From an uncultured Phycisphaerales bacterium (GTDB lineage Bacteria > Planctomycetota > Phycisphaerae > UBA1845 > Fen-1342): 35,748 bases of DNA. The notes under the pieces are model-generated. The model was not told the DNA's origin. It made no database searches and was given only the letters and a program-made list of their open reading frames with translations. The position numbers and the translations under genes were made by a program. The first letter of the stretch is position 1, and every line of letters begins with the position of its first letter. Positions 10,445 through 22,026 of the stretch are shown here, piece by piece. The DNA lies in NCBI GenBank assembly GCA_903914415.1, contig CAIWOY010000114.1:1-35748 (forward strand), read 5' to 3'.

Positions 10445-10922
10445 TGACTACTTCAAGCCGCTCTTCGATCAAACTTGATGCCAACCGCCGCGCACCAGGA
10501 GTCCTGGCGCCCAAACAGGCAGCGGGCGACGATACCGTTGCTCTCCTTTGCATTTCAGTTTGGTAATCGACACCGCCAGGAGTCGGTGGCCCCCTGGAAA
10601 CGGTTCCGGGCGCGGCGTCCGTTCGTGATTAAGAGGTAATGACGAAGGACGGGGGGCCTCGTGGCAGGCAATTCGTGCCTGGGTGCTCATAGCGGCTGGT
10701 ACGTCGCCCGATAAGACGGAAAAGTGTGCAGCGGTTCCAGGCCGCGACGCGCATCGCGGATGTGCAACCGGCGTCCGGGGCATCCGCCTGCGCCCGGGAC
10801 GGCCGCGTTGGCCGCAGCCCATCCGTTGCCGAACGCGGCGGATTGGGGAGCCCGCAGCGCAGGTCACTCGGGGCCGCGCCAACCTCCGTGGAAGCCGAAT
10901 GCACTTGGGCCGGGCGAGTTCG

Positions 10923-12296
10923 ATGAACGGAAGCGTCAATGATCTGAAGTCGAGCACGGTTGGCACCCCCGGGGGCGGCCCACTCTTGGAGCGCCCGGCA
11001 CGGTCCGTCTGGACGTATGCTCGGCCGGCCGTGGTTCTGGCGGCGGGCCTGGCCTTCAGCACTTACTGCTTCTGGATTGTCGAGGAATCGGCACAGCGCA
11101 ACGGGGGCGTTGAGCATCCGTTGGACCCCTGGCGCGGGCCGTACGCCATACTGTTGGGCGGCTGTGTCCTGACGTTGCTCTCGGCTTGGTGCAGCCGATC
11201 ATGGGCCGGCCGGTTGCCTGCTCAGCGGCAGACCTCCGGGCAACCGGGGCGGGGGCGGCTTGACCGGGGACAAGCACTATGCGGGAGCGAGGAAGCGCTG
11301 TCCCAGATTCTCCAGAGTACGTCGATCCCGCTCTTCGTAATCGACCGGCGGCATGTCGTGATCCACTGGAACCGGGCCTGCGAGAACCTGACCGGCGTCC
11401 GCGCCCACGAGATAATCGGTACACCGGAAGCCTGGCGGGCCTTCTATGCGGCCAAGCGGCCCGTGCTTGCGGATCTGGTGGTGGATCGACGGCCGCAAGA
11501 GGAAATCGCTGAACGTTACGGCGCCCACCAGTCCGAGTCCGTCGTACTCCCCGGGGCATACGAGATCGAAGCCTTTTTCCCGAATTTCGGGGAGGGAGGC
11601 AAATGGCTCTTCTTCACGGCCGCGCCGCTGCGCGACACGGCGGGGGCGATCGTCGGAGCCGTCGAGACCTTCCAGGACACGACCGAGCGCAAGCGGGCCG
11701 AGGCGGCCCTGCGTGAAAGCGAGGAGAAGCTCCGCGAGATCGCCGAGACAACTGGCGACTGGATATGGAAGACGGATCAGAACTGCGTGTACACATACGC
11801 AAGCGTCAGAGTGAAGGACATTCTCGGGTACGCACCGGAAGAGGTGATTGGTAAAGCTCCCTTCGACTTCATGCCCTGCGACGAGGCCAGCAGGGTCGCT
11901 GCCGCGGTGAAACCGTTGATGGAAGCTCGCAGACCGTTTTCCCTGCTCGAGAACAAGAACCTGCACAAGGATGGGCATGAGGTCATCCTCGAGACGAGCG
12001 GCGCGCCCATTTTCGACGGCGCGGGACGTTTCCAGGGCTATCGCGGGGTCGCTCGCGACGTCACAGAACGCAAGCGGGCTGAAGAAGAACTGCAGCGGCG
12101 CGTCAACGAGTTGTCCGAAGCGAAGCGACGCCTGGAGGTTCTGGTCTCTAACACGACCGACCGGGAGAGGCGAATGGTCGACCTGAAACGAGAAGTCGAC
12201 GACCTGCTCGAGACGCTGGGGCGCGGCCCGAAATACGAGGCCCCGCAGAAGGTAGCCGAGCTCAGGGCGTCGACCCCCGCGTCAGCGGCCCAGTAG
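10923..12296 (+). CDS. Membrane PAS-PAS sensor protein without kinase domain
   Basis: About 457 aa from the ATG at 10923; an ATG at 10896 (GGAAG upstream) is an alternative. Two N-terminal membrane segments (VVLAAGLAFSTYCFWIV and YAILLGGCVLTLLSAW) enclose a short external loop. Then come two PAS domains: SEEALSQILQSTSIPLFVID... ending FQDTTERKRAE, and LREIAETTGDWIWKTDQN... ending VARDVTERKRAE. A C-terminal coiled coil (EEELQRRVNELSEAKRRLEVL...) leads into a Pro/Ala-rich tail. There is no HisKA, HATPase, cyclase or DNA-binding domain, so it must pass its signal by protein contact. It is first in the hydrogenase operon, 11 bp before the small subunit. In known H2-sensing systems a PAS domain of the kinase (HoxJ) contacts the regulatory hydrogenase. 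Here that PAS part may be a separate protein (inference). Confidence 0.8.
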   Translation: MNGSVNDLKSSTVGTPGGGPLLERPARSVWTYARPAVVLAAGLAFSTYCFWIVEESAQRNGGVEHPLDPWRGPYAILLGGCVLTLLSAWCSRSWAGRLPAQRQTSGQPGRGRLDRGQALCGSEEALSQILQSTSIPLFVIDRRHVVIHWNRACENLTGVRAHEIIGTPEAWRAFYAAKRPVLADLVVDRRPQEEIAERYGAHQSESVVLPGAYEIEAFFPNFGEGGKWLFFTAAPLRDTAGAIVGAVETFQDTTERKRAEAALRESEEKLREIAETTGDWIWKTDQNCVYTYASVRVKDILGYAPEEVIGKAPFDFMPCDEASRVAAAVKPLMEARRPFSLLENKNLHKDGHEVILETSGAPIFDGAGRFQGYRGVARDVTERKRAEEELQRRVNELSEAKRRLEVLVSNTTDRERRMVDLKREVDDLLETLGRGPKYEAPQKVAELRASTPASAAQ

Positions 12297-12307: not shown

Positions 12308-13246
12308 ATGTCGGCAACGCTTTACTGGCTTCAATCTGGCGGATGCGGCGGGGACACGATGTCGCTGCTCGGAGCAGAGTCCCCAGACCTTGTGGAGCTT
12401 CTGCGCTGGCTGGATGTCGAAATCCTGTGGCACCCTTCGCTTTCCGATCGCAGCCCCCACGAGCATCAGAATCTGCTCGAGCGCATCCTGTCGGGCCGAC
12501 AAGCCCTGGATATTCTGTGCGTGGAGGGAACCGTCATCCGGGGCCCCGGCGGCACGGGCATGTACGACGTGTTCGCCGGCCGACCCAAAAAGGACCTGCT
12601 GGCGGGACTCGCCGGCCAGGCCCAGTTCGTTCTCGCGGTCGGAACGTGTGCCAGCTTCGGCGGGATCGGGGCTGACGGAGCCGTGGAAGCTTGCGGCGTC
12701 CAGTTCCTCAAGTGGGAAAAAGGCGGCTTCCTGGGCGCCACGTTCACGGCCCGCAGCGGCCTGCCGGTCATCAATCTGCCCGGCTGCCCTTGCCACTGCG
12801 ACGTGGTGGCCAACACGTTGGCCGCCCTGCTCGGCGGACGGGCGATCCCGCTCAGCGAGTTCAATACGCCGCTCGCCTGGTACGGCCTGTTGGTGCACCA
12901 GGGTTGCACGCGAAACGAGTACCACGAATACCGCGTGGAGGACCAGGGTTTCGGCGAGAAGGGTTGCCTGTTTTTCCACATGGGCTGTCACGGCCCGCTG
13001 GCCTACGGCCCCTGCAACAAGCTGCTGTGGAACCGGCGCAGCTCCAAGACGCGGGTCGGCGTGCCGTGCTTCGGCTGCACCCGGCCGGACTTCCCGCAAC
13101 CGTATCCCTTTTATTACACGCGCAACATCGAGGGGATTCCCAAACAGCTCCCGGACGGCGTGGACCGGGCGCACTACATGGCCTACAAGGGCATGGCCGC
13201 CGCCGCCGCCCCGGCCAGGCTCAAGGACCGCAAGACCCGCGTATAG
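12308..13246 (+). CDS. [NiFe]-hydrogenase small subunit, group 2-like
   Basis: 312 aa. No Tat signal, so cytoplasmic, as in sensory HupU/HoxB and cyanobacterial HupS. The start MSATLYWLQSGGCGGDTMSLL closely resembles the HupU/HoxB N-terminus, but the second proximal-cluster position is Asp16 instead of Cys (CGGD). Other ligands fit: Cys114 (VGTCASFGG) and Cys160 (LPGC) for the proximal [4Fe-4S]; His197, Cys200, Cys220 and Cys227 for the distal cluster; Cys236, Cys254 and Cys257 for the medial cluster, with the 18- and 3-residue spacing of standard small subunits. It carries electrons between the active site in the large subunit (17 bp downstream) and a partner. The neighbours are signalling proteins, which suggests H2 sensing. 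Confidence 0.93.
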   Translation: MSATLYWLQSGGCGGDTMSLLGAESPDLVELLRWLDVEILWHPSLSDRSPHEHQNLLERILSGRQALDILCVEGTVIRGPGGTGMYDVFAGRPKKDLLAGLAGQAQFVLAVGTCASFGGIGADGAVEACGVQFLKWEKGGFLGATFTARSGLPVINLPGCPCHCDVVANTLAALLGGRAIPLSEFNTPLAWYGLLVHQGCTRNEYHEYRVEDQGFGEKGCLFFHMGCHGPLAYGPCNKLLWNRRSSKTRVGVPCFGCTRPDFPQPYPFYYTRNIEGIPKQLPDGVDRAHYMAYKGMAAAAAPARLKDRKTRV

Positions 13247-13263: not shown

Positions 13264-14832
13264 GTGTCGGCCACGGCAACACTGAACATCCCCACGAGAA
13301 ACGCGGTAAAGACAACACTGAACATCCCGCTTAACCGCGTCGAGGGCGATCTCGAGATCCGGATCGAGTTGCAGGACGGCCGCGTGGCGGACGCCTGGAG
13401 CTCGGGGACCATGTATCGCGGCATCGAGAACATCCTGGTCGGCCGCGGCTCGCTCGACGGACTGGTGATTACACCGCGCATCTGCGGCATCTGCACCACC
13501 GCGCATCTGACCGCCGCGTCGAAGGCCCTGGACGCAATCGCCGGTATCCAGCCGCCCCCGGACGCTGTCCGTGTCCGCAACTTGGCGCTGATGACCGAGT
13601 CGCTCCAAAGCGACGTACGCCAGACGTTCCTGACGTTCGCGGCCGATTTCGCTAACCCGGCCTACCGGGAGCGGCCGCTCTTCGAGGAAGCCTGCGGGCG
13701 CTACACGCCGCTGAAGGGCGAGACGGCGATTGAGGTGATCCGTCAGACCAAGCGGGTCATCGAGATCGTCGCCATCCTCGGCGGGCAGTGGCCGCATTCG
13801 TCGTACATGGTGCCCGGCGGCGTAGCCACCGTGCCCAGCCTCGCTGACTTGCTACAATGCCGACACCTCCTGGCAGGCTACCGCTCCTGGTACGAAGCCC
13901 GGATTCTGGGGTGCCCGATCGAGCGCTGGCGGGAAGTCCGCAGCCAGGCCGACTTGGACGGCTGGCTGGAGGAGTCGGCCGCACACGGCGACAGCGACTT
14001 GGGCTTCTTCATCCGCTTCGCCCGCGAGATCGGTCTCGACCAAATCGGCCGCGGGCACGGGAATTTCCTCAGCTTCGGGCAGCTCGACCTGCCGCCCGAC
14101 ACACAAGTGCGGGGCCGCGCTGGCGCCACTGACCACCTGATCCCCGCCGGGTTTGCCCGCGGCTCGGAGGTCAGCGCGTTCGACCAGGCGAAGGTGGCCG
14201 AACACGTGGCGCATTCTTGGTACGTGGACTACGCTGGCGGCCGCCATCCGTCCGCAGGTCAGACGCAGCCCTATGCCACCGGCGGCGAGAGCCAGAAATA
14301 CTCATGGGCCAAAGCGCCGCGCTACGACGGCCTGCCGGCCGAGACGGGGCCGCTGGCCGAGATGGTCATCGCGCGGCACCCGCTCTTTTTGGACTTGCTG
14401 GCGCAAGGGCCCAACGCCTTTGTTCGCCAACTGGCGCGCCTGGTCCGGCCGGCCGAGTTGATGCCGGCCATGGAGCAGTGGCTTTCCGAGATCACTCCCG
14501 ATGGCACCTTTTACATCCCCACACCGGCAATCAGCGAGGGAGAGGGCATCGGTACCACGCAGGCCGCCCGCGGCGCGCTGGGACATTGGGTGAAGATCGC
14601 CGACGCGAAGATTCAACACTACCAGATCATCACGCCCACGGCGTGGAATGGCTCGCCGCGTGACTCCGATGACGTCCGCGGGCCGTGGGAGGAGGCGCTG
14701 ATCGGCACGCCAGTGGCTGACCCGGCAAACCCGGTCGCGTTGGGTCACGTGGTCCGGTCGTTCGACCCATGCCTGGTGTGCACGGTACACGCCCTCCACC
14801 GTGGGCGGAGCCTGGCCCGCCAACCCTTATGA
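13264..14832 (+). CDS. [NiFe]-hydrogenase large (catalytic) subunit
   Basis: About 522 aa from the GTG at 13264, with AAGGAAG six nt upstream. The frame is open further upstream but overlaps the small-subunit gene. It binds the NiFe(CN)2CO site: N-terminal motif [10 protein letters not shown] (Cys74, Cys77) and C-terminal motif DPCLVCTVH (Cys503, Cys506, His509). After His509 there is a 13-residue tail, [13 protein letters not shown]. Such tails are removed by a specific endopeptidase after nickel insertion, and a candidate endopeptidase is the next gene. Regulatory HoxC/HupV subunits lack the tail, so this one differs from classical sensors. NRVEGDLEI near residue 24 is the usual N-terminal signature. 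A 12-residue duplicated stretch (TLNIP twice) precedes it. Confidence 0.93.
13277..13328 (+). repeat. In-frame 16-bp direct repeat at the start of the large subunit
   Basis: CAACACTGAACATCCC occurs at 13277-13292 and again at 13313-13328, a period of 36 bp (12 codons). It gives two TLNIP segments, the second leading into the conserved RVEGDLEI motif. Confidence 0.7.
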
Positions 14833-14840
14833 GGCGCAGC

Positions 14841-15308
14841 ATGAGGCGCATCATCTGTGTCGGCAACCGTCACAGCGCGGCAGATGCTGCCGGACCGTTG
14901 GTCTACGAGCGCCTGGCCCGGATGGAACGGCCGCTGGACATCGAGGTGATCGACGGTGCGCTGGCCGGACTCGATCTGCTTCGCTTTGTCGAACAGGCCG
15001 AGCGGGTGGTATTTGTGGACGCGGTGCGGGCTGGCGGTTCACGGGGCAGGGTTGTCGTCCTCACAGCCGACGAAGCCGCAGAGAACGCCCCCGAGATCTA
15101 CGACCACTCGGCCGGGCTGGCGTATTTGCTGCGCGCGCTGCGGTGCGTGTCCGAAGGTCCGCTCCCGGAGATCTGGGTGGTCGGAATCGAGGGCATTCCC
15201 GAGGGCGAGACGATCAAGACCGCGGCCGACTTGTGCCTGTCGATTGCCGCCGAAGGGTACCGGGCGGCGCGCCAGCATACCGCGCCGGCCTGCGGAGCGC
15301 GGGCATGA
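14841..15308 (+). CDS. Hydrogenase maturation endopeptidase (HybD/HupW family)
   Basis: About 155 aa from the ATG at 14841 (GAGG seven nt upstream); an ATG at 14829 that overlaps the large-subunit stop has no ribosome binding site. The family signature is present: [14 protein letters not shown] matches the GNxLxxDE/DxxGP pattern, with Asp at the position of Ni ligand Glu16 in E. coli Hyb[11 protein letters not shown] supplies the Asp62 equivalent and [13 protein letters not shown] the His93 equivalent. These enzymes cut the C-terminal tail of the large subunit once nickel is inserted. Its position directly after a large subunit with a 13-residue tail fits. The stop overlaps the next start (ATGA). 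Confidence 0.85.
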
Positions 15309-16900
15309 TGCCAATGACGCGGGAGCGCAGCGCGGCCGAGCTCTTGGAGGAGAACGCGATGCTCCGGGAGGAGGTTCGCGTTGCCCGACGGGCCTCGGAC
15401 ATCACCGCGCAGCTCATGGTGCAGCAATTCATCAAGATCGAAGAAATCCTGTTGCGGCTCGAAGAGCAGGCCCGGGTGGAGCAGGAACTGGGGCGGAAGC
15501 TGACGGAAAAGCTGCGGGAGTCGGAAGTCCGCGAAGGTGAGCTGGCCCGCGATCGAGAACGACTCGAGGACATGCAGGTGGCCGCCATCAACATGATGGA
15601 GGATATCGCGGCGGCACGCGCGGCGGCCGAGGAGGCCACGCTGGCCAAGAGTGAATTCCTGGCCAACATGAGCCACGAAATCCGCACTCCGATGACCGCG
15701 ATCCTGGGATACCTCGAGCTTGTCGTCGAGGGCTGCCCGCGCCAGTGCGAGTTCGGCAACCAGGAGCATCAGGAGCATCTGGCGACCATCTCACGCAACG
15801 CCGACCACCTGCTCCGACTCATCAACGACATTCTGGACCTGTCGAAGATCGAGGCGGGCAAGCTGGAGGCCGAACGCGCGTCTTGTTCCGTGATCCAGTT
15901 GGTGGCCGACATCGCCTCGCTCATGCAGGTTCGCGCCGACGCCCGCAGCCTGTGCTTCAAGACCGAATTCGTCGGGCCGATCCCGGAGCGCATCGAGAGC
16001 GATAGCACGCGGCTTAAGCAGATCCTCATCAACCTCGTGGGCAACGCCATCAAGTTCACCGAGACCGGCAGCGTTCGCCTTGTCACGCAGTTCCTGCCGG
16101 CCGCCGCGAATTCCGACGGCAGCGGCGAGCCCATGTTGCAGTTCCAGGTCATCGATACCGGTATCGGTATGACGCCGGAGCAGCTTAGCAAGCTGTTCCA
16201 GCCATTCTCACAGGCCGACGCCTCGACCACGCGCCGGTTCGGCGGAACCGGGCTGGGGCTGGCGATCACCAGCCGGTTGGCAAACATCCTGGGCGGTAAC
16301 GTGATCGCGGAGAGCTGCCCCGGAAAAGGCAGCACCTTTCGCGTCACGATCGCGACCGGGCCCCTCGGAGACACGGCCTTCCTGGACCAACCTTCAACCG
16401 TCATCACGGTCAACGCCGAGACGGATGCCGGCACGGCAAGCGAGCAAAAGCTGCCGACCTGCCGGATCCTGCTGGCGGAAGATGGACCCGACAACCAGCG
16501 CCTGCTCTCGGCCGTGCTACGCAAGGCTGGCGCGGAGGTGGTGGTCGCCGAGAACGGCAGAATCGCGGTCGAGACGGCACTGACCGCCTGGGAGGCGGGT
16601 GCCGCCTTCGACGCGATCCTGATGGATATGCAGATGCCCGTGCTGGACGGATACGACGCGACCAAGTCGTTGCGGCAAAAGGGCTACGCGGGCGTCATCA
16701 TCGCGCTGACCGCCCACGCCATGTCCCAGGATCGAGAGGAATGTCTACGCGCTGGCTGTGACGACTACGCCAGCAAGCCGATTGACCGGAAACGGTTGAT
16801 CGGCACGATCCAGTCGTGCCTCGTGCAGCACGCTGCGCGGCCGGAAGCCCCTGCTGAAACAGGAATGGTTGCGAACGAACCGCACGTCCACAGCAGGTAG
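15305..16900 (+). CDS. Hybrid histidine kinase with receiver domain, no obvious input domain
   Basis: About 531 aa; its ATG overlaps the protease stop by four nt, so translation is coupled. Residues ~1-110 form a long charged coiled coil without a PAS, GAF or membrane segment. HisKA follows with NMSHEIRTP (phospho-His124), then HATPase_c with an N box ([13 protein letters not shown]), DTGIGM and GGTGLGLAI. The C-terminal receiver starts at [16 protein letters not shown]; its phospho-Asp is about residue 441 in [13 protein letters not shown], and Lys in ASKPID is conserved. Since the kinase has no sensor of its own, the input probably comes through the coiled coil from the PAS protein or the hydrogenase encoded upstream. 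No Hpt protein or output response regulator is in the window. Confidence 0.9.
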
Positions 16901-17251: not shown

Positions 17252-17440
17252 CTATGGGCATGTCGTCCCGATCAGCGCCACGAACGGGTCGATGTCCGCA
17301 AACGTGACGTGCGCGTCGTGATTGCAGTCGGCGTTGATCCACGGACACGTATGCGTCCAGGTGGACTCGCCACTCAGCGCCGCGACGAACAAGTCAATGT
17401 CGGCGAACGTGACCTGTTCATCGCAATTCATGTCACCCCG
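17252..17440 (-). repeat. Dockerin-like module, copy 2 of 3
   Basis: Same terminal module as at 3-190 and 24767-24956, on the same strand. The gene boundary TGCCCATAG differs from copy 1 only at the extreme end. Confidence 0.75.
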
Positions 17441-18559
17441 GCAACCCTGCGGGGTGCACGGGTTCGGCGTGCAGGGCGCGCCGTCGGACCAGCGCCCGCC
17501 TACGCTGTCGCAGTCGGCCTTGGTCTGGTCAGGGAAGCAGGCCCCGTGATAGCAGCACGCACCCAGGCAGGGGCTCGGGTCGCACGTCGTCGCGGCGTGG
17601 AAGGTCCCTGCGGCCGCGACGCACTGCACGCGGTACGTCTGCGTGCACGCTTGCCCATTCACGCAGCACGCCCCGCGATCGCACGGCGCCGGGCTGTCGT
17701 TGCAGTGCGTCCCGACCCCGCCAAACACCCCGCCGTACCCCGCGCACGAAGCCAGCGTCATGTTAAGGCATCCGCGCTGCGCGGACAGGCAGCACGCGCC
17801 CTGCGGTTGCGGACACGGATTCGGCGAGCAGGTCGTGTTATTTCCCTGGTAGGTTCCACCGCTGCCGGTGCAGTCGACCTGCGTGTGCACCACGCAAGAT
17901 CCGTTCGTATAACAGCACGCTCCGGTCGGATCCGGGCACAGGATCACGGCGCGGATGCCGAAGTCGCCTCGCACGGGCGGATTGAGCGTGCAGGGGTTCA
18001 CCCAGCCGCCAGGGATTGCGAAGATGACGTTCTTCCCGCTCTGGCAGCCATCCACGTCGCGCACGACACTGGGCCCGCCGTTGCCCACGTCGGTCCGGTC
18101 GGCGAATTGGAGAGTCACGTCGAACTGCTGGCCGTTCGTCACCGGCACGTTCAGCGGGATCGTCCCGGCCTCATCCAGGTAGCGGAACTCGTTCCAATAC
18201 CCAGGCGACAGCACCGGGCCTTCGAGGTACGCCAACTCGGTGCCCGCCGCCGGGAACGTCGAGCCGTTGTAGATGTGGATCGAGTCCTCGAGGCTATCGC
18301 CGTGCCCCGGAAGCCCCTCCAGCCAGAGGATCTGCACGGCCACAATGGTGCCGTTGCACGGTGAAGTGAGGCGGGCCCCCGCCTGCTCCCCCTCCAGGAA
18401 GTCCCCCACAATGACGGAATTCGGGTCTCCGGCGGAATTCGGGTCCGATCTGAGGGAATCGTTCTTGACGACGACCTGCCCCGCCCATGCGGGGAGCGCT
18501 AGCGCGCAGAGGGCCAGCGACACGAGGAGAGACCGCAGGGCTGGCGACTGGGCTTTCAT
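17252..18559 (-). CDS. Secreted Cys-repeat protein with dockerin-like module (second)
   Basis: About 435 aa from the ATG at 18559 (GAGG six nt upstream); a GTG at 18571 is less likely. The signal peptide is LLVSLALCALALPAWAG. Residues ~20-195 are a beta-rich domain of unknown family (VVVKNDSLRSDPNSAG... to FGIRAVILCPDP). Four GACC-type Cys repeats follow (GACCYTNGSC, GACCLSAQRGC, GACCVNGQAC, GACCYHGAC). The C-terminal pair of EF-hand-like loops is DMNCDEQVTFADID and DCNHDAHVTFADID, joined by the WTH.CPW.NADC linker. It is a paralogue of the gene at 3-2156 in its C-terminal half only, so different N-terminal domains share one tail. Probably extracellular; no enzyme motif seen. Confidence 0.85.
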   Translation of the reverse strand: MKAQSPALRSLLVSLALCALALPAWAGQVVVKNDSLRSDPNSAGDPNSVIVGDFLEGEQAGARLTSPCNGTIVAVQILWLEGLPGHGDSLEDSIHIYNGSTFPAAGTELAYLEGPVLSPGYWNEFRYLDEAGTIPLNVPVTNGQQFDVTLQFADRTDVGNGGPSVVRDVDGCQSGKNVIFAIPGGWVNPCTLNPPVRGDFGIRAVILCPDPTGACCYTNGSCVVHTQVDCTGSGGTYQGNNTTCSPNPCPQPQGACCLSAQRGCLNMTLASCAGYGGVFGGVGTHCNDSPAPCDRGACCVNGQACTQTYRVQCVAAAGTFHAATTCDPSPCLGACCYHGACFPDQTKADCDSVGGRWSDGAPCTPNPCTPQGCRGDMNCDEQVTFADIDLFVAALSGESTWTHTCPWINADCNHDAHVTFADIDPFVALIGTTCP

Positions 18560-18608
18560 CTTCCGCCTCACAGGTTGGGTCTAGAACGTGACCTCGAGAC
18601 TCGTTCTT

Positions 18609-18708: not shown

Positions 18709-19137
18709 CTAGTTCCGCGCCCCGACCGGGCTCGCCGCCGACCGTACCAAGTCGGCAACCACAGTCCGCGTCAGCAGCGTCTTGGCGTAGTCCGCCACGT
18801 CGCGGCAGGTTTGCTCCAGCCGCAGCCGGGCGGCCTCCTTCTCCGGGGCGACGCTCCGCAGCAGCAGGTCGCCGCTGATCGGCCCTTCGATCGCCTCGAC
18901 GATCTCCAGCAGCGAGATCTCATGCGCGGGCTTGCGCAGCACGAACCCGCCCGCCGGTCCCCGTTCGCTCGTCAGCACCTGCGCCCGCACAAGCTGCTGC
19001 AGAATCTTCAGCAGGTGTCCGCACGGTACTCCACAGGCTTCGGCGATGTCGCGTCCCTGGATCGGCGTGCCGTTCTCTTTCTCCGCCAGATACACGGTTG
19101 CGAACACCGCATACGCCGCTGCTCTGCCAAGTCGCAT
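18709..19137 (-). CDS. Rrf2-family transcription regulator lacking the Fe-S cysteines
   Basis: 142 aa from the ATG at 19137 with GAGG upstream. The frame is open to 20208, but the upstream part is a shadow of the acyltransferase gene. MRLGRAAAYAVFATVYLAEKENGTPIQGRDIAEACGVPCGHLLKILQQLVRAQVLTSERGPAGGFVL is a typical Rrf2 winged-helix start. The region that holds three clustered Cys in IscR, NsrR and RirA (about residues 90-107) here has a single Cys (QTCRDV), so a [2Fe-2S] or [4Fe-4S] cluster of the usual kind is not expected. It is divergent from the acyltransferase-ligase fusion, with a palindrome beside its -10, suggesting autoregulation and possibly control of that gene. Confidence 0.85.
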   Translation of the reverse strand: MRLGRAAAYAVFATVYLAEKENGTPIQGRDIAEACGVPCGHLLKILQQLVRAQVLTSERGPAGGFVLRKPAHEISLLEIVEAIEGPISGDLLLRSVAPEKEAARLRLEQTCRDVADYAKTLLTRTVVADLVRSAASPVGARN

Positions 19138-19258
19138 ATCACACCTCGCGACGGTCGCCACACATTCCGCTTCGCGTCCCTGCGGCGCGCGGGCGCACGC
19201 TCCGCACGCCACCAACCCCCGCGTTCTCGCCGGCCCGCACTCCGCTCGTCCATTTTGG

Positions 19259-19398: not shown

Positions 19399-22026
19399 AT
19401 GCTCGACGCATTCCTGCGTAACGCCGTGCAACTCCTCTTGTGGCTCAGATACCGCGTGCGCGTGCGTGGACGGACCGCGGTTCTCCGCCGCGGAACCCGC
19501 CGAATCCTCTTCCTGCCGAATCACCCCGCCCTGATCGATCCGATCATCGTCATGGCCTGCCTCCGCGACCCCTTCGCCCCCGGTGCACTGGCCGACAAGG
19601 ACCAGATCGACCGCTTCTTTGTCCGCTGGCTCGCGCGCCGTTGCGGCGCGCGCCCGCTGCCCGACCTCCGCCGGTACGGGCCCGCGGTCCGACCCGCGGT
19701 GGAGGCCGCCATCCAGCAGTGCGTGGACGAGCTCAGACGCGGCGAGAACCTGCTGCTCTATCCCGCCGGCCACGTCTACCGGACGCGCTTCGAAGACTTG
19801 CGGGGCAACAGCGCGGTCGAGACGATCCTGCGCGCGGTTCCGGACGTGCGGGTCGTGCTCGTCCGCACTCGCGGCCTGTGGGGCAGCAGCTTCAGCCTGG
19901 CCGGCGGCTCCGTCCCTAACATCGCCCGCTGCCTCAAGAAAGGGTCCTGGGCCCTTCTGCGGAACTTCCTCTTTTTCTCGCCGCGGCGCGAAATCACGAT
20001 TGATCTGTGCGAGCCCCCGGACCTGCCCAGAAACGCCGGCCGGAACGAGCTGAACGCGTACTTGGAGCGGTTTTACAACGAGGACGCGCCGCCGGCGCTG
20101 TACGTGCCCTACACGCGCTGGGAATGCGGCGGGCCGCGCGCCTTGCCGGGTCCGGAGCTGGGCCGCGTTGACGGCGCGCTGAGCGAAGTTCCGGAAACCA
20201 CGCGGCAACTGGTGACCACGTTCCTGCGCGGGCTAAGCGGCGCCCCGTCGCTGCGCGACGAGGACCGCCTCGCGCAGGACCTCGGTCTGGACAGCCTCGC
20301 CAAGGCCGAGTTGGTCCTCTGGCTCGCAAAGGAGTTCGGCTTCTCCGAGGCCGACGTGGATGCCCTCCAGACCGTCGGCGAAGTCATGCTGGCGGCCCGC
20401 GGACAGGCGATCGTCGCGCGGCCCGTGGAGCTCAAGGCGGTCCCGGCCAAATGGTCGCGCCGCCGCACCGACCGGCGTCTCGCGCTTCCGCCGGGGCAGA
20501 CGATCACCGAAGTCTTCCTGCGGCAGGCCCGAACCGGCGCCGGCCGGGCGGTCGTGGCCGACCAACTCGGCGGCGTGCGGTCGTACCGCGACTTGATCGC
20601 GGCGATCCTGGTGTTGAAGCCGCTGATCGAGAAACTGCCCGGCGCGCGGGTCGGCATCATGCTCCCCGCCTCCGTCGCGGCCAACCTGGTGTACCTCGCC
20701 ACGCTCTTCGCCGGCAAAGTGCCCGTGATGGTGAATTGGACGACGGGCGCCCGGAACGTGGGCCACGCTTTGGACCTGACCGAGGTGCGGCACGTGCTCA
20801 CGGCCGGCCCGCTGGTCGCCCGGCTCGAGTCGCAGGGTATCGATCTGACCGGCTTGAAGGACCGGTTCGTGCTCCTCGAAACGCTCGCGCGGGAGGTCTC
20901 GGGCGCCACGAAGCTCTGGGCCGGGATCCGAAGCCGGACCAATTGGTCCGCGCTGTGGCGGGTGCAAGTTCCGGACACCGCCGTGGTCCTGCTCACCAGC
21001 GGTTCGGAGTCGCTGCCGAAGGCCGTGCCGCTGACCCACGCGAATCTGCTGGCGAACATCCACGACGTACTCGACGTCTTTACGGTCCGCGGCAGCGACT
21101 GCCTGATGGGCTTCCTCCCGCCGTTCCACTCCTTCGGACTGACGGTCACGATGCTGCTGCCGCTGCTGGCCGGTGCGCGGGCGGTCTACCACCCCAACCC
21201 GACCGAGGCCTGGGTGCTCGCGCGCCTCATCCGGGACTACCAGGCCACGCTGACCTGCGGCACGCCAACCTTCTTGAGCGGCATCGTCCGGGCCGCGACC
21301 GGCGACGAGCTCGCGTCGCTCCGACTGATCGTGTACGCGGCGGAGAAATGCCCGGAGCGGACCTACCAGGCCCTCATCCAACGCTGCCCGAGCGCGGTCA
21401 TCGTCGAAGGCTATGGTGTGACCGAGTGCTCGCCGGTCGTTTCGGTGAATCGGGAGGAAGACCCGCGCCCCGGCACGATCGGCAAGGTCTTGCGCTCGTT
21501 CGAACATGCGCTCGTCGATGTGGACACCGGCCAGCCGGCCGAAACAGGGGCGGTCGGCGTGCTGCTCGTGCGCGGTCCCTGCGTCTTTCCGGGCTATCTC
21601 GGCGCCGACGCCGCCTCACCGTTCGTCGGATTCGCCGGTAAGCAGTGGTACCGCACCGGCGACCTGGTGAGCGCGGACGCCGATGGCGTGCTCACCTTCC
21701 GCGGCCGCCTCAAGCGGTTCGTCAAGCTGGGCGGCGAGATGGTCTCGCTGCCCGCAATCGAGGCCGTGCTCGAGCAGCACTACGTGACAGACGCCGACGA
21801 GGGGCCGGCCATCGCGGTGGAGGCGACCCCGAGCGAGGACCAGCCCGAGATCGTCCTGTTCACGACGCGGGACGTGGACCGACAAACGGTGAATCGCCAG
21901 ATTCGCGCGGCCGGGCTCTCGCCGCTGCACAACGTCACGCGCGTCATCCGCATGGAGCAGATTCCCGTCCTGGGCACCGGCAAGACCGACTATCGCGCGC
22001 TGCGCGACAGCCTCCGCAAAGAATGA
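19399..22026 (+). CDS. Acyltransferase-ACP-acyl ligase fusion (Aas-like)
   Basis: 875 aa. Three domains in order. Residues 1-230 are a PlsC-type acyltransferase (HX4D motif NHPALID, His42/Asp47; a downstream YPAGHVYRTRF block). Residues ~255-330 are an acyl-carrier-protein domain with the phosphopantetheine Ser in LGLDSLAKAEL (Ser299). Residues ~370-875 are an AMP-forming acyl ligase, with phosphate loop LLTSGSESLPKAVPLTH (about 531-547), GYGVTECSP (from 671), WYRTGDL, and a Lys in GTGKTDYRAL near the end. E. coli Aas joins the first and last activities to re-acylate lysophosphatidylethanolamine via external ACP. Here the carrier is built in, so acyl-AMP could be loaded on Ser299 and passed in cis. 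Peripheral membrane localisation is likely. No strong ribosome binding site precedes the ATG. Confidence 0.9.
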   Translation: MLDAFLRNAVQLLLWLRYRVRVRGRTAVLRRGTRRILFLPNHPALIDPIIVMACLRDPFAPGALADKDQIDRFFVRWLARRCGARPLPDLRRYGPAVRPAVEAAIQQCVDELRRGENLLLYPAGHVYRTRFEDLRGNSAVETILRAVPDVRVVLVRTRGLWGSSFSLAGGSVPNIARCLKKGSWALLRNFLFFSPRREITIDLCEPPDLPRNAGRNELNAYLERFYNEDAPPALYVPYTRWECGGPRALPGPELGRVDGALSEVPETTRQLVTTFLRGLSGAPSLRDEDRLAQDLGLDSLAKAELVLWLAKEFGFSEADVDALQTVGEVMLAARGQAIVARPVELKAVPAKWSRRRTDRRLALPPGQTITEVFLRQARTGAGRAVVADQLGGVRSYRDLIAAILVLKPLIEKLPGARVGIMLPASVAANLVYLATLFAGKVPVMVNWTTGARNVGHALDLTEVRHVLTAGPLVARLESQGIDLTGLKDRFVLLETLAREVSGATKLWAGIRSRTNWSALWRVQVPDTAVVLLTSGSESLPKAVPLTHANLLANIHDVLDVFTVRGSDCLMGFLPPFHSFGLTVTMLLPLLAGARAVYHPNPTEAWVLARLIRDYQATLTCGTPTFLSGIVRAATGDELASLRLIVYAAEKCPERTYQALIQRCPSAVIVEGYGVTECSPVVSVNREEDPRPGTIGKVLRSFEHALVDVDTGQPAETGAVGVLLVRGPCVFPGYLGADAASPFVGFAGKQWYRTGDLVSADADGVLTFRGRLKRFVKLGGEMVSLPAIEAVLEQHYVTDADEGPAIAVEATPSEDQPEIVLFTTRDVDRQTVNRQIRAAGLSPLHNVTRVIRMEQIPVLGTGKTDYRALRDSLRKE

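Follow-up and report, generated by a model that had tools for sequence, protein, structure and literature searches.

Non-cysteine ligands of the proximal iron–sulfur cluster are central to debates on the bias, affinity and oxygen tolerance of [NiFe] hydrogenases. A locus from an uncultured Phycisphaerales bacterium raises the question of what such a residue means in a hydrogenase that sits among signalling genes. The locus lies on contig CAIWOY010000114.1 (assembly GCA_903914415.1), which was analysed over its whole stretch of 35,748 nucleotides, here called the window. The original prediction, made from the letters of the window, had pointed to a CGGD motif in the hydrogenase small subunit, with Asp at residue 16 where HupU and HoxB have CGGC. 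It suggested that a cluster with such a ligand, in a group 2-like, signalling-linked enzyme, could shift the redox potential or the behaviour towards oxygen.

An aspartate in the proximal-cluster motif

The small-subunit gene encodes a protein of 312 amino acids that starts MSATLYWLQSGGCGGDTMSLL and consists of the Pfam domains Oxidored_q6 (PF01058) and NiFe_hyd_SSU_C (PF14720). The top PDB match is the Huc small subunit from Mycobacterium smegmatis (7UUR, E = 1.5e-87), which at 44–45% identity is the nearest solved relative. Foldseek likewise returned the hydrogenase small-subunit fold, with Huc ranked first and 5AA5 second. The AlphaFold model (26 close homologues) has a mean pLDDT of 63, and residues 12–25 fall below 50. 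Codon 16 reads GAC, as predicted, and places Asp at position 2 of the proximal-cluster Cx2C motif, C13-G-G-D16 (Table 1).

Table 1. Features of the hydrogenase locus, with positions in the window
Feature	Position	Strand	Basis or remark
Membrane-anchored double-PAS protein without a kinase domain	10683–12296	+	PAS_4/PAS_9 (Pfam), two hydrophobic segments
[NiFe]-hydrogenase small subunit, group 2c-like, 312 aa	12308–13246	+	Pfam, PDB match, tree
Cys13, proximal ligand by homology	12344–12346	+	Invariant in alignment
Asp16, codon GAC, position 2 of the proximal Cx2C motif	12353–12355	+	
Cys114, proximal ligand by homology	12647–12649	+	Invariant in alignment
Cys160, proximal ligand by homology	12785–12787	+	Invariant in alignment
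Cys162, extra Cys of the GCPC motif, two residues past Cys160	12791–12793	+	Clade-typical
His197, Cys200, Cys220, Cys227, distal ligands by homology	12896–12988	+	Invariant in clade
Lys247, at the medial-cluster position	13046–13048	+	Cys in HoxB/HupU, Lys in group 2a
Hydrogenase large subunit, GTG start	13264–14832	+	PF00374, E = 4.6e-81; alignment with HoxC/HupV
HycI/HupD-family hydrogenase maturation protease	14829–15308	+	PF01750; overlaps large-subunit stop
Hybrid histidine kinase (HisKA, HATPase_c, receiver)	15305–16900	+	Pfam; overlaps protease stop

There is a negligible chance that the Asp codon arose through faulty sequencing or assembly. The window does belong to an assembly of 464 contigs, but Asp is encoded in 80 independent loci by two types of codon (51 GAC, 29 GAT), and this excludes an error in practice. 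One of these loci, L032, comes from an independent MAG (Phycisphaerales fen_1342) and encodes a protein that is 95% identical to that of the window.

These loci were collected in one scan of a species-level genome collection, which gave 425 matching places, and all of the best 80 (64–95% identity), which were retained, have Asp at column 16. With its 82 closest relatives, the window falls in a clade whose members have Asp at this residue in 83 cases out of 83. Going by record titles, the clade is spread over about 13 phyla (Planctomycetota, Desulfobacterota, Myxococcota, Pseudomonadota, Nitrospirota, Chloroflexota, Acidobacteriota, Fibrobacterota, Eisenbacteria, Bacillota, Armatimonadota, Kiritimatiellota and Riflebacteria), and many of its members are metagenome bins. 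Since the seeds of the scan had CGGD and only close relatives were retained, the counts speak to fixation inside the clade and not to the frequency of Asp among all group 2 enzymes. Asp16 is thus a hallmark of a multi-phylum lineage in which it is fixed, rather than the peculiarity of one genome. On the tree, the presence or absence of Asp at column 16 requires six changes, so that Asp at proximal position 2 has been gained or lost repeatedly.

Operon structure and class membership

The double-PAS gene, whose true start is probably near 10899–10920, lies directly upstream of the small-subunit gene and nearly touches it. The large-subunit, protease and kinase genes overlap or nearly do so, as expected of an operon. 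With PAS and histidine-kinase genes in the same operon, the proposed link to signalling is supported. The large subunit has all catalytic motifs, including L1 (RICGIC) and L2 (DPCLVCTVH), and carries a C-terminal extension of 13 residues. No electron-acceptor subunit adjoins the hydrogenase and signalling genes in the window. The genome also encodes HypD and, on other contigs, two more distant homologues of the small subunit.

Operons of the clade, like that of the window, usually combine the two subunit genes with a histidine-kinase gene, and often with a maturation-protease gene as well. A kinase-like gene, recognized by similarity to the kinase of the window, is found downstream of the hydrogenase in 60 of the 67 loci for which 4 kb or more of downstream sequence is available; the other seven include Ideonella and some divergent kinases. 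Pfam confirmed the downstream kinases in a sample that included the L060 type. The protease was detected in 39 of the 72 loci with enough sequence.

Adjacency of hydrogenase and kinase genes does not prove signalling, and the enzyme might instead be an energy-conserving or electron-recycling uptake hydrogenase, similar to group 2a, that merely neighbours signalling genes. Such an enzyme would fit with Huc being the closest solved structure, and with the large subunit. In HoxC and HupV, Gln replaces a conserved His and there is no C-terminal extension; the window has both the His and the extension, along with the protease, as in group 2a. Within the clade, the extension is usual, and 71 of the 75 readable members have the His. 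On the other hand, the kinase linkage recurs over some 13 phyla, the four signalling and hydrogenase genes overlap or are tightly spaced with no acceptor subunit beside them, and the distal His is unlike group 2a. An uptake role is therefore considered unlikely.

The large-subunit extension varies from 0 to 32 residues across loci L032–L111. The large subunits of L066 and L070 end at CTVH, and those of L045 and L050 at CTVHAIDLR. Short tails occur mainly where there is no adjoining protease (Mann–Whitney p = 0.053, uncorrected for relatedness), as though certain lineages were losing proteolytic maturation, like HoxC/HupV.

Other genes around these operons were also noted. Upstream of the hydrogenase in L050 (964–3960) is an MMPL/RND-like transporter of about 990 residues that is fused to a histidine kinase (HisKA, HATPase_c), and genes of similar length lie upstream of the hydrogenase in the Desulfobacteraceae loci L049, L060, L081, L082, L095 and L105. 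Beyond the operon, the window encodes a secreted-looking, Cys-rich protein without a Pfam match but with a dockerin-like C-terminus of paired D-x-N-x-D repeats (17252–18571, minus strand), an Rrf2-type regulator-like sequence (MRLGRAAAYAVFATVYLAE...) with seemingly only one of the usual cluster Cys residues (within 18709–19140, minus strand), and a fusion of acyltransferase, acyl-carrier-like and AMP-binding parts resembling an Aas-like acyl-ACP synthetase (19399–22026, plus strand).

Columns 16 and 162 were masked before the small-subunit tree was built. In it, the window groups with its 82 closest relatives as a single clade, and group 2b is likewise a single clade (SH-aLRT 99 for each). Ideonella dechloratans (NZ_CP088082), a single representative on a long branch, joins the clade with an SH-aLRT of 97. 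The group 1h row, also single and on a long branch, does not belong to the group 2 clade (SH-aLRT 99); the window shares with it the proximal Asp but not its phylogenetic grouping. In the best tree, the clade adjoins group 2a (91), but a union with group 2b apart from 2a is not rejected by the AU test (p = 0.347), and a firm sister placement to 2a was accordingly discarded. The large-subunit tree gives the same picture, except for L062, which is a wrongly picked paralogue.

HydDB describes group 2b as “histidine kinase-linked” and group 2c as “diguanylate cyclase-linked (putative)” (PMC5037454). In place of a diguanylate cyclase, the window has a histidine kinase and a PAS protein, which is the linkage of group 2b. 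Simple membership of group 2b was nevertheless rejected on account of Asp16, Lys247, the large-subunit His and the C-terminal extension. Because the clade groups with Ideonella but mostly has histidine kinases in its own operons, it is group 2c-like by sequence and kinase-linked by context. A methylococcaceal member, L088, gives no more than a hint of a tie between the clade and the group 2c enzyme of Methylobacter.

The iron–sulfur relay

The other Cys and His ligands had all been predicted to be present. This is true of Cys13, Cys114 and Cys160 at the proximal cluster and of the four distal ligands, but not of the medial Cys of HupU and HoxB, which is Lys247 here. The medial residue is Lys in 82 clade members and Arg in one, Lys in six out of six group 2a sequences, and Cys in six out of six from group 2b. 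Position 197 is His in the clade and in group 2b, and Gln in group 2a. As judged from these alignments, the relay is a mixture, with an Asp at the proximal cluster, a medial position like that of 2a and a distal one like that of 2b. Cluster types can be proposed for the window enzyme by analogy with Huc and RH, and the redox effect described below is likewise a proposal.

The favoured explanation, to which we give somewhat better than even chances, is a cytosolic sensor of H2, group 2c-like in type, whose proximal cluster is Cys3Asp and whose state is read by the PAS protein and the hybrid kinase. We infer that, as in group 1h, Asp16 would directly ligate a site-differentiated proximal [4Fe-4S] cluster, together with Cys13, Cys114 and Cys160. 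Through this cluster, the electrons of H2 would pass to a Huc-like medial [3Fe-4S] cluster (Cys236, Cys254 and Cys257, with Lys247) and on to a distal [4Fe-4S] cluster (His197, Cys200, Cys220 and Cys227). The co-transcribed PAS protein and hybrid histidine kinase might then read the small subunit, through either its redox state or its conformation. As a hard ligand, Asp could tune the cluster through a lower potential or a labile iron, and the slower turnover to be expected from this would suit a sensor.

There are precedents for such tuning. With oxygen as a ligand, a [4Fe-4S] cluster can have a lower potential or a labile iron (examples cited in PMC4070099), and the NO sensor NsrR has an Asp-ligated [4Fe-4S] cluster (PMC5411485). 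The sensory enzyme RH, which has three [4Fe-4S] clusters, has a proximal cluster that is unusually hard to reduce with four Cys ligands (PMC5665086). Asp would thus be one route for sensing and not a requirement.

The proximal cluster could also be a [3Fe-4S] cluster to which Asp16 contributes no bond to iron, which would give a high-potential relay and an enzyme tuned to low H2. The argument comes from Huc, the closest solved homologue: all three clusters of HucS are reported to be [3Fe-4S] (PMC10017518), Asn there goes with a [3Fe-4S] cluster, and the medial Lys is common to Huc and the clade. Moreover, a Cys-to-Asp change in PsaC can give a [3Fe-4S] cluster (PMC4070099). However, the Asp of group 1h binds iron at the same CxxD spacing, and the clade strictly keeps Asp rather than Asn. 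It also keeps His197 where Huc has Gln, so that the relay is not simply Huc-like. A [3Fe-4S] proximal cluster is thus a possibility to be taken seriously, but a rather doubtful one.

A Cys3Asp cluster would also be put in question if another Cys filled the fourth proximal site, and Cys162 does indeed adjoin the ligand Cys160. It is present in 77 of the 83 clade members and in none of the sequences outside the clade. Cys162 might swing in as the fourth thiolate, and the result would be a standard [4Fe-4S] cluster with Cys ligands throughout, or else an unusual one rich in Cys. However, Asp16 persists in the six clade members where position 162 is Ala, Val or Leu, in Ideonella, which has Ala there, and in others, so that Cys162 is not an obligatory replacement, and its role as a compulsory substitute ligand was rejected. 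The spacing to Cys160 also seems close for two ligands of one cluster. A tree-based pair test of sites 16 and 162 yielded no informative pairs. Replacement of Asp16 by Cys162 is accordingly regarded as very unlikely, although Cys162 may serve as an alternative ligand in the proteins that carry it.

A more elaborate version of the Cys3Asp sensor, improbable as it stands, is that in this widespread kinase-linked family, distinct from HoxBC and HupUV, a labile Asp-bound iron and the nearby conserved Cys162 together gate signalling, with ligand exchange combining H2 with a second redox or gas signal. The exchange could be between Asp and Cys162 or could involve an added gas such as O2 or NO.

The suggested effect on oxygen behaviour found no support. 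At the position of Phe110 of HoxC, a residue that lines the gas channel, the window has Thr and most of the clade has Met or Leu. With the bulky Phe replaced, the oxygen insensitivity of RH should not be assumed.

Comparison with known hydrogenases

Proximal position 2 is Cys (CGGC) in HoxB of Cupriavidus necator and in five other group 2b sequences, six out of six aligned, in agreement with the original prediction. It is Asn (CSGN or CNGN) in six group 2a sequences and in Huc, which matches the predicted departure from Cys in cyanobacterial-type enzymes (see also PMC4070099, Table 1). Asp stands in the same column in group 1h, where both the Ralstonia eutropha enzyme that had been named as a precedent (5AA5) and a Streptomyces sequence (L112) have CDGD; the proximal [4Fe4S] cluster of this group is described as having an aspartate ligand (PMC7174314). 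Of the earlier interpretation, the statements on CGGC, the Asp of group 1h, the Asn of group 2a and the signalling link therefore stand, while those on a full set of other ligands and on oxygen do not.

The swap from Cys to Asp is itself already known. Yonemoto et al. (2014) tabulated it at this exact position in Geobacter metalloreducens (YP_006722286), with the cluster assignment marked as unconfirmed, along with a Cys-to-Asn change at proximal position 2 in Nostoc (PMC4070099). Both substitutions were tolerated in an engineered hydrogenase, the Asp variant being C81D of the A. macleodii enzyme, which showed hydrogen-evolution activity (PMC4070099). Searches of open-access papers turned up no description of an Asp ligand for group 2c, which does not prove that there is none. 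The clade shows a known type of ligand swap, here fixed across a broad family of group 2c-like hydrogenases with a kinase link.

Acidic residues at proximal position 2 were also seen in other planctomycete small subunits. L004 (G145) has CGGE and L005 (G239) has CGGD; both have a medial Cys and group weakly with group 2b, and they are a separate, second case in which this position has become acidic. Group 1-like planctomycete small subunits with Asp or Glu there are L007, L008, L010, L011, L012 and L014, among which L007, L008, L010 and L012, from Phycisphaerae-related genomes of the same class as that of the window, have CSGD, CTGD or CSGE.

Within group 2, the same position is occupied by Cys (2b), Asn (2a) or Asp (this clade) in proteins that otherwise align, which amounts to a natural experiment on the way in which the residue sets the type and potential of the cluster. 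The family is large, mostly uncultured, multi-phylum and kinase-adjacent, although the HydDB label for group 2c refers to diguanylate cyclases. It can be told from HoxBC and HupUV by CGGD, a mostly conserved GCPC and the medial Lys, and since Desulfatibacillum alkenivorans DSM 16219 (L060) is a cultured bacterium that carries it, it is open to experiment.

Among known systems, Ideonella dechloratans, the group 2c representative, shares with the window the CGGD motif, the medial Lys, the distal His, the C-terminal extension of the large subunit and a maturation protease in the operon. It is 50% identical, lacks Cys162 and has a PAS-GGDEF-EAL protein (diguanylate cyclase/phosphodiesterase) instead of a histidine kinase. 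HoxBC and HupUV of group 2b (Cupriavidus necator, L030; Azospirillum, L028) share with the window a histidine-kinase link, through which group 2b is known to signal, the distal His and 42–48% small-subunit identity, but have the proximal CGGC and a medial Cys. Group 2a and Huc share the medial Lys and a non-Cys residue at proximal position 2, but this residue is Asn, the distal His is Gln and there is no kinase; Huc is reported to reduce menaquinone (PMC10017518). Group 1h (5AA5; Streptomyces L112) has only 24% identity in the fold comparison and no signalling link. The G. metalloreducens protein and the C81D variant of A. macleodii have the identical substitution at the identical ligand position.
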